64,000 nucleotides of DNA. Source: Brachyspira pilosicoli (GTDB lineage: Bacteria; Spirochaetota; Brachyspiria; Brachyspirales; Brachyspiraceae). Under the pieces are notes generated by a model, which did no database searches, was not told the DNA's origin, and saw only the letters and a program-made list of their open reading frames with translations. The DNA lies in NCBI RefSeq assembly GCF_036997485.1, contig NZ_JAWLPU010000003.1, forward strand, positions 1-64,000, in the 5' to 3' direction. The position numbers were made by a program, and so were the translations under genes. Each line of letters opens with the position of its first letter. Positions within the stretch are counted from its first letter, which is position 1. Positions 40,999 through 43,170 of the stretch are shown in pieces.

Positions 40999-43170
40999 TT
41001 AATTTATCTCATAATTCTCTATATAAATCTTTACTTCTTTGCTGCCATTAAATCTATTAATTTTTATCTTGTATGAAATATTTATAAAATTTGATGCTTC
41101 CAATTTAGAGCATTCTTCTTCTGATGAACTCCAAATTATGGCACTAACTTTGCTGCTGTTTTTTTGTAATTGCAGCTTTAAATGAATCTTATTATTTTTG
41201 TTTATTTTTTCTATAGAGTTTATAGTAACCCTATTTGTAAGAAACACAGGCTCTTCATTAGCAAAACCATAAGGCTCAAATAATTCTAAATATTCGGCAA
41301 ATTGCATATTAATATCTTTAAAATCTAATTCCAAATCATAAGTTTTTTCATCTTTTGAGGTGTTAAAATTTTCTTCCGAAGCATATTTAATAATTTTTTT
41401 AGCAAACTTTTCAAAATTATTTACACTCACAGTAAACCCAGCAGCATTTTTATGCCCACCAAACTTATCTAAATAAACACTTGAATACTCAAGCATATCG
41501 CGTGCATTATCATCGCCCCTGCTTCTAATACTTCCCGTACAAACTCCATCTTCTTTAGACTCATAAAGTATAACAGCAGTCTTTCCATATTGACTTAAAA
41601 CCTTGCCAGCTATAAGCCCAGTTAAACCTCTATCTATTAAATCGCTCTTTACTATTATAATAGGGTAGGACATGCAATTATTATCTCTTATATATTCGCA
41701 CACTATATTAAAATTACTTTCTGTAAGAGATTTTCTTGTTTCGTTTAAATTATAAACTTCTTCAGATAATTGAAAAGCCTCTTCTCTGGTTTCAGAAGTT
41801 AAAAGCCTTAAAGCATATTCAGGCTTTCCCATTCTTCCAGCAGCATTGATAAAAGGAGCAAGCCTCCAACTTACAGCCTGAGTATCAACTTTAGTGTTTA
41901 GTAATTTTATTCTCTCTAATATAACATTGTATCTTATATGATTAGGCTTTTCTAATTCTGCCAAAGCACATTTTATATAAGCCCTATTCTCTTCAATAAG
42001 CGGCACAACATCGGCAACTGTTCCAAACAATACTAATATAGATTCTCTTTTTATATAGTTTTGCAATTGCTTTTGACTTAAATAATACATTCTTCTAAAA
42101 ATTTCCATTTTTATTATTAAGTCTCTATAGAGAATATTATCATACTTATATATATTAACTTTAAGAAGCAAAGCAAACTCATCTAATGTATTAACTGACT
42201 TGATATTAACCCCGCCATAATTAGCACCCAACTGAAGTAAATCATAAACATTATCATATTCAGGCAAATATAGTTCATATTTTTCATATAGTCTAAGAAG
42301 TTTTTTAAGCCTAATCTCTCCGCCTGTAAGAACCAATACAACATTCTCTCCCTCAAACATATAACTACCCAACTCTTCTAAAACTTCATCTTCTGATAAA
42401 AACTCTTCATAATAATCTAAATAAATTGATTTATAAGCATTTTCATTATTTACAAGCTCAAAGCCAAATACATCATCACTATAAACAAAATTAGTAGCCT
42501 TTAATGCTCTTATTCTTTTTAATCTATCAGTATTTTTATCTATCTCATAATCTAATATAATAATGTCTTTGTTATAAAGTTTAGTATAAGAAAAAACAAA
42601 TGCCTGCATAAGCTTAAATGCAACAGCACATCCAGAAAAATTTTTAGAAACAAAACCAGTATTTGAAAGCTTAGGATTAAATATTAAATAGGCATTAGGT
42701 AGTATTTCAGGTATATCATGATGGTCTGTTACTATAATATCTATAGAATGCTCCCTCGCAAACTCAACTTCTTCAACATTTGATATGCCGCAATCAACTG
42801 TGATAATTAAACTTACCCCAGAATTAGCATACTCTTCAATAACATCTTTTGAAAGCCCATAACCCACTTCATGATTAGGCACAAATGCTTCAACATTTTT
42901 TGTAACAGCCTTAAGAGTATTATATATTATAGAAGCAGCAGTAACACCGTCAGCATCTTTATCGCCATATATCAATATTTTTTCATTATACTCTATAGCC
43001 TCTTTTAGCCTATCTACAAAAGCATTCATATCCCTAATATTAAATGGATTAGAAAGCGAATATATATCCTGAAAGAAAAAATCAAAAATATCCTCTTTTG
43101 AAACTATACCCCTTAATTTTAACAGCTCTTTTATAATAGGATTTAAATTATCTATGTCAATTTTTTGCAT
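40999..43170 (-). CDS. recJ: RecJ single-stranded-DNA exonuclease with large inserted domain
   Basis: RecJ degrades single-stranded DNA 5' to 3' in recombination and repair. The 723-residue protein is longer than typical RecJ (about 560-580). Motif I DKDADG (70-75), VDCGIS (125-130), DHH (149-151) and GTVADVVPL (383-391) are all present, as are the DHHA1 GRMGKPEYAL and GGHKNAAGF regions and an OB-type C-terminus. The extra length lies between DHH and GTVADVVPL: about 160 residues (about 200-365) that read like a DnaQ/DEDDh exonuclease fold (ILDYE at 206-209, VLVLTGGEIRLKKLL, then a terminal HxxxxD-like NILYRD). The rest of the enzyme appears complete. An AAAGG ribosome site is weak. Confidence 0.92.
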   Translation of the reverse strand: MQKIDIDNLNPIIKELLKLRGIVSKEDIFDFFFQDIYSLSNPFNIRDMNAFVDRLKEAIEYNEKILIYGDKDADGVTAASIIYNTLKAVTKNVEAFVPNHEVGYGLSKDVIEEYANSGVSLIITVDCGISNVEEVEFAREHSIDIIVTDHHDIPEILPNAYLIFNPKLSNTGFVSKNFSGCAVAFKLMQAFVFSYTKLYNKDIIILDYEIDKNTDRLKRIRALKATNFVYSDDVFGFELVNNENAYKSIYLDYYEEFLSEDEVLEELGSYMFEGENVVLVLTGGEIRLKKLLRLYEKYELYLPEYDNVYDLLQLGANYGGVNIKSVNTLDEFALLLKVNIYKYDNILYRDLIIKMEIFRRMYYLSQKQLQNYIKRESILVLFGTVADVVPLIEENRAYIKCALAELEKPNHIRYNVILERIKLLNTKVDTQAVSWRLAPFINAAGRMGKPEYALRLLTSETREEAFQLSEEVYNLNETRKSLTESNFNIVCEYIRDNNCMSYPIIIVKSDLIDRGLTGLIAGKVLSQYGKTAVILYESKEDGVCTGSIRSRGDDNARDMLEYSSVYLDKFGGHKNAAGFTVSVNNFEKFAKKIIKYASEENFNTSKDEKTYDLELDFKDINMQFAEYLELFEPYGFANEEPVFLTNRVTINSIEKINKNNKIHLKLQLQKNSSKVSAIIWSSSEEECSKLEASNFINISYKIKINRFNGSKEVKIYIENYEIN

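Follow-up and report, generated by a model that had tools for sequence, protein, structure and literature searches.

The gene at positions 40999..43170 (minus strand) of the analysed window, a stretch of 64,000 nucleotides from contig NZ_JAWLPU010000003.1 of Brachyspira pilosicoli, encodes a RecJ with a second domain nested in its catalytic DHH domain. This insertion is a degenerate homologue of the DnaQ-type 3'-5' exonuclease domain. At the same point of RecJ several other spirochaete families carry a DnaQ domain with its catalytic residues complete, while the Brachyspira copy has most likely lost catalysis. RecJ is treated as a uniform and nearly universal 5'-3' nuclease, and no earlier description of a RecJ with a DnaQ insertion was found in the open-access papers searched.

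The RecJ protein and its insertion

The open reading frame runs from 43170 down to 40999 without an internal stop and yields 723 amino acids. The initial annotation, made from the sequence alone, had named the product RecJ, and this is borne out by NCBIfam TIGR00644 (480.9 bits against a cut-off of 396.9) and by the Pfam domains DHH (residues 64-195, 42586..42981, motifs I-III; PF01368, E=7.4e-26), DHHA1 (506-598, 41377..41655; PF02272, 7.4e-14) and RecJ_OB (611-718, 41017..41340; PF17768, 1e-24). The full-length AlphaFold model has a predicted local distance difference test score (pLDDT) of 93 and matches the RecJ structures of S. aureus and D. radiodurans. D70, D72, D74 and G75 of motif I (42946..42963), D126 of motif II, D149-H151 of motif III (42718..42726), D387 of motif IV (GTVAD, residues 383-387, 42010..42024) and G571-H573 (the GGH of DHHA1) are invariant in this RecJ and 44 other spirochaete RecJs. 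Because the catalytic residues are invariant in all 45, the 5'-3' nuclease of the Brachyspira RecJ is predicted to be active.

The insertion proper comprises approximately residues 196-375 (about 180 residues, 42046..42585) and lies between motifs III and IV. Counted from start to start, DHH and GTVAD are 234 residues apart here compared to 65-68 in insert-free spirochaete RecJs, and the stretch contains about 185 unaligned residues compared to about 6-15 in the RecJs of S. aureus and D. radiodurans. DHH at 149-151 and GTVADVVPL at 383-391 were located correctly in the initial annotation, as were D207, E209, N345 and D350 within the insertion. Its distance of about 235 residues also holds; the value of about 80 assumed for ordinary RecJ has to be lowered to about 65-70, and the insertion, placed rightly at about 200-365, extends somewhat further on both sides. 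A single metal ion is coordinated in the D. radiodurans RecJ by His159 (motif III) together with Asp223 (motif IV), the counterpart of D387 (PMC4846377). The insertion thus separates, along the chain, two residues that serve the same active site as metal ligands.

RecJ sequences were gathered from about 45 further spirochaete genomes in addition to 29 of Brachyspiraceae, so that all surveys reported here cover spirochaetes. Every one of the 29 Brachyspiraceae genomes contains a RecJ match; together they yielded 26 distinct sequences in which the insertion was read, and its length is steady at 175-182 residues over three genera. An assembly or annotation artefact was considered and is ruled out by this common architecture and by the occurrence of the intact form in six further families (16 genomes).

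Fold and homology of the insertion

The insertion alone was modelled with AlphaFold from an alignment of Brachyspiraceae sequences only, which contained no DnaQ sequence, giving a pLDDT of 86.4 and a predicted template modelling score of 0.84. In a Foldseek search of the PDB with this model the DnaQ epsilon subunit 2gui ranked best (E=1.8e-5, probability 1.00), and further top matches were 1j53, 2ido, 8h2f, the DnaQ of S. thermophilus and RNase T. Each of the best 40 PDB matches either is a DEDDh exonuclease or contains one. The DnaQ/DEDDh-like domain proposed in the initial annotation is therewith recovered by structure, and on the two outcomes that could have spoken against it, a model lacking an RNase H-like or DnaQ fold and a better score for an unrelated fold, the result favours DnaQ. 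The window insertion has the RNase H-like DnaQ fold according to Foldseek and scores below the gathering cut-off of Pfam RNase_T.

A further argument arises from profile comparison. The Brachyspiraceae insertion profile aligns by hhalign with the intact RecJ-embedded DnaQ domains described below at E=2.5e-4 over 162 columns, collinear from end to end, and the profile of the Treponema/Borrelia-type insertions does so at E=2.4e-5. With the RecJ linker trimmed, the Brachyspira score was reached by none of 100 column shuffles, and the same was true of the Treponema-type score. A chance motif match was also considered; it is ruled out by the column shuffles together with reversal, by positional homology and by the model built without DnaQ sequences.

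Intact embedded domains in other families

An intact and unmistakable RNase_T/DnaQ domain occupies the same insertion point in 12 RecJs (L031-L036, L039-L041, L071, L075, L076) from the families f13, f15, f23, f26, f34 and f35, which is decisive for the DnaQ reading. All 12 match Pfam RNase_T over the cut-off (best E=1.1e-38) and possess the complete DEDDh set, with the motifs D-x-E-T-T-G, G-[HQ]-N...F-D and H....D, in which the DxE, FD, H and D columns are invariant. A PDB search with their profile gives the PolC exonuclease 2p1j (1.4e-46) first and then DnaQ, DinG and epsilon. Three intact-form proteins were tested and score above the curated cut-offs for recJ and for dnaq alike; Pfam places all four domains, DHH, RNase_T, DHHA1 and RecJ_OB, on a single polypeptide, including in a genome that consists of one contig (G052). 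By its sequence the intact form is a predicted two-nuclease protein, combining a 5'-3' DHH with a 3'-5' DEDDh nuclease. A simple scan for QxxL-type patterns found no conserved clamp-binding site in the embedded DnaQ domains.

The intact form is present in 16 genomes of six families outside Brachyspira, among them 13 out of 13 genomes of f15, f26, f34 and f35 (one with a frame break). In family f29, of the same class as these four, the proteins are shorter and their matches are confined to the parts outside the insertion. As a side observation, an intact-type recJ at G134:C176:4698-6865 is split over two frames within the insertion, by a frameshift or an assembly error. The initial annotation had suggested looking at the RecJs of other spirochaetes; the insertion is common to most of the phylum, with a complete DEDDh nuclease in several families.

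Evolutionary history

A RecJ tree was calculated without the insertion and rooted on the RecJs of S. aureus and D. radiodurans. The first branches are the insert-free families f14, f10, f25 and f4; of the remaining families nearly all have the insertion in an intact, degenerate or shortened form, family f6 having mostly lost it again. In other lineages it has shrunk to about 80-120 residues or to almost nothing. The intact copies are divided between two clades, a pattern consistent with a single gain and repeated later decay; a second gain is also possible. In the tree of DnaQ-type domains the embedded ones cluster together, save for one solo Brachyspira protein in the same unresolved fork, and a single clade of embedded domains is not rejected (approximately unbiased test, p=0.35). 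A single early insertion with subsequent repeated decay and shrinkage would fit these observations. We note that the labels "Treponema-like" for f19 and "Borrelia-like" for f37 are our own tentative assignments.

Three other Brachyspira genomes contain extra solo RNase_T genes (G018:C23:2476-2940, G010:C1:2559010-2559474 and G022:C63:14516-14955). The frames have 272-280 amino acids in two of these genomes, and the G022 copy has an internal TAA. In the tree the G018 copy stands nearest to the RecJ-embedded domains, at a fork that is not resolved.

Active site and selection in Brachyspira

To the D-x-E motif of DnaQ corresponds D207-Y-E209 in strand 1 of the insertion (42544..42552), of which D207 is kept in 24 out of 25 Brachyspiraceae sequences and E209 in 23, the other two having Asp. 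The last Asp of the DEDDh set has its counterpart in D350 (42121..42123; 24 out of 25). Five residues before it, the His position is N345 in the window and N, D, G, E or S among the Brachyspiraceae, and the HN/FD motif is gone. E285 (42316..42318), a Glu in 23 out of 25 sequences, is aligned with the middle Asp of DnaQ in one alignment and begins, in the model, the helix that carries this Asp in DnaQ, so that it perhaps stands in place of the lost Asp. With both His and middle Asp missing the complete D-E-D-D-h set is not present in the window insertion, and the Brachyspira domain therefore most likely no longer cuts. The initial annotation had seen the same three residues as kept and the other two as changed; its view of a degenerate domain that may bind rather than cut is consistent with the residue pattern.

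In close pairs within the genus the ratio of nonsynonymous to synonymous substitution rates of the insertion is 0.09-0.14, which is above that of the N-terminal DHH part and of the same order as that of the other domains. This strong purifying selection is an argument that the Brachyspira insertion is a maintained pseudo-exonuclease and not debris.

Proposed explanation and alternatives

On the basis of the computed fold, homology, position, conservation and distribution we consider it likely that a DnaQ domain entered RecJ early and that the Brachyspira copy is now a non-cutting pseudo-exonuclease with an accessory role. A DnaQ/PolC-type DEDDh 3'-5' exonuclease domain would have been inserted early in the spirochaetes into the RecJ DHH domain between motifs III and IV, and several families would have retained the complete two-nuclease protein. 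In Brachyspira the nested domain would have kept its fold and most of the acidic cluster, and lost His, middle Asp and thereby cutting. Retained under purifying selection, it would probably bind the 3' end of single-stranded DNA or dock a partner protein, a putative binding or scaffolding role by which it could position the active 5'-3' RecJ nuclease.

Several observations weigh against this explanation. Taken alone, the insertion has no Pfam match and nothing significant in an hmmsearch of PDB sequences, for which reason RecJs were gathered across the phylum as intermediates. Its match to solo DnaQ is weak (E=0.019, with 3 out of 100 shuffles as good), so the case for homology by sequence rests on the intact intermediates and the fold. 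Two of the five AlphaFold models of the insertion were poor (pLDDT 57.6 and 41.5), the Foldseek TM-scores (template modelling) are moderate, mostly 0.53-0.64, and the RecJ tree has a weak root branch and leaves several deep forks open. The conservation of D207, E209, E285 and D350 may point to residual metal binding or weak catalysis. The missing direct match and the weak profile match to solo DnaQ could moreover mean that the insertion is a lineage-specific expansion unrelated to DnaQ which converged on a similar outline. We regard this as highly improbable, as the insertion point is shared with bona fide DnaQ domains in orthologous proteins, the profile match is collinear across the whole domain and the leading structural matches are without exception of the DEDDh type.

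If the DnaQ origin is granted, the domain might still be a working, altered DEDD-type nuclease, with one or two metals bound by D207, E209, D350 and E285 and the role of the His taken over by some other residue. The four acids are conserved in 23-24 of the 25 Brachyspiraceae sequences and lie at the right structural places, in strand 1 and at helix starts, and the lack of PF00929 elsewhere in the genome leaves a possible niche. Against this stand the variable His position and the missing HN/FD motif; the most distant genus (L029) has E, D, N and S at the four acids, and conservation is just as high in large parts of the remaining domain, so that retention of the acids is not special. A working nuclease seems quite improbable to us for these reasons. 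An insertion of DnaQ origin could also be a passive leftover, tolerated since its removal would break RecJ folding and having no binding or docking role. The shrinkage seen in other lineages means that the insertion is not needed for RecJ in general, which would suit a leftover, but purifying selection in Brachyspira is of the same order as in the neighbouring domains and the length is constant in three genera; we hold this reading to be unlikely. A maintained pseudo-exonuclease with an accessory role remains our preferred explanation.

Genome context and proofreading

The genome of the window has no RNase_T (PF00929) match anywhere. In 13 of the 16 genomes with an intact insertion the embedded domain is the sole RNase_T match, and a match outside RecJ occurs in about three out of four of the remaining non-Brachyspira genomes, in counts that ignore relatedness and come from incomplete genomes. 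We looked at the PHP site of DnaE, using the motif HHDHEHCDH as defined elsewhere (PMC12926913). It is complete in Brachyspira and in all other families examined except f42 and f35. The f42 DnaE (L114, G139) has a partly destroyed site, HHHLERPDH, and this genome possesses separate solo RNase_T/DnaQ proteins.

In f35 each of four genomes has one DnaE (L131, L132, L133 and L180 of G098, G093, G114 and G130), and seven to eight of the nine PHP metal ligands are lost. No other DnaQ-type match was found in the four genomes, even with the insertion profile at E up to 1, and neither was a 3'-5' exonuclease domain of DNA polymerase I (PF01612). The assemblies are 79-95% complete; that chance accounts for these absences in all four is unlikely. 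With the PHP site destroyed and both other DnaQ proteins and the polymerase I exonuclease missing, the embedded DnaQ is the only evident candidate proofreader in f35. The argument that it would work with DnaE at the fork is circumstantial. We propose only tentatively, as a doubtful possibility, that replicative proofreading moved into RecJ in f35 and that Brachyspira represents a late, catalytically dead stage with an intact PHP site. If true, a single f35 polypeptide would be both a 5'-3' repair nuclease and the proofreader of the cell. Whether the 3'-5' domain of RecJ can proofread where PHP site and DnaQ are missing thereby becomes a testable question.

Relation to known systems

The Brachyspira protein agrees with bacterial RecJ (TIGR00644; D. 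radiodurans 5f55, S. aureus 8y30) in catalytic motifs, in the order DHH-DHHA1-OB and in fold, whereas in the solved RecJ structures no domain separates motif III from motif IV. With the DnaQ epsilon and PolC exonucleases (RNase_T, DEDDh) the insertion shares the fold, and its intact homologues also the sequence and the catalytic set; here, however, the domain is nested in RecJ, instead of being free or part of a polymerase, and the DEDDh set is broken in Brachyspira. PolC itself has its DnaQ exonuclease inserted in the PHP domain (PMC3919608). In both cases DnaQ is nested in another metal-dependent phosphoesterase domain, the host of PolC being a polymerase and not RecJ.

The DHH domain of human Cdc45, a relative of RecJ, contains a helical insertion (PMC4873980), which has been located between motifs III and IIIa (PMC5615345). 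Both proteins thus have a RecJ-type fold whose DHH domain is interrupted by an insertion the size of a domain, that of Cdc45 being thought to serve replisome interactions; the Cdc45 insertion, being helical, does not resemble DnaQ, and Cdc45 has no nuclease activity, whereas the RecJ site is intact here. SaDinG, a DnaQ-type exonuclease fused to the DinG helicase (PMC12345164), likewise joins such a domain to a DNA-repair enzyme, but as an N-terminal helicase fusion and not nested. Disruption of BB0254 (recJ) in B. burgdorferi had modest, inconclusive effects (PMC2779866); its product is probably not a standard RecJ.

In most of the spirochaete phylum RecJ thus appears to contain a second nuclease fold, which some families have in a complete form and others in a dead one; among the lineages concerned are some that are similar to the syphilis and Lyme disease agents. 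This would provide a graded natural series in which an enzyme domain becomes an accessory module, within the superfamily from which Cdc45 also arose.

Neighbouring gene

Elsewhere in the window, positions 45013-47793 (plus strand) encode a protein of 926 amino acids with a signal-like start and a putative metal-binding motif, HELVHLL. It has no Pfam match at E 0.001 and could be a surface peptidase-like protein.
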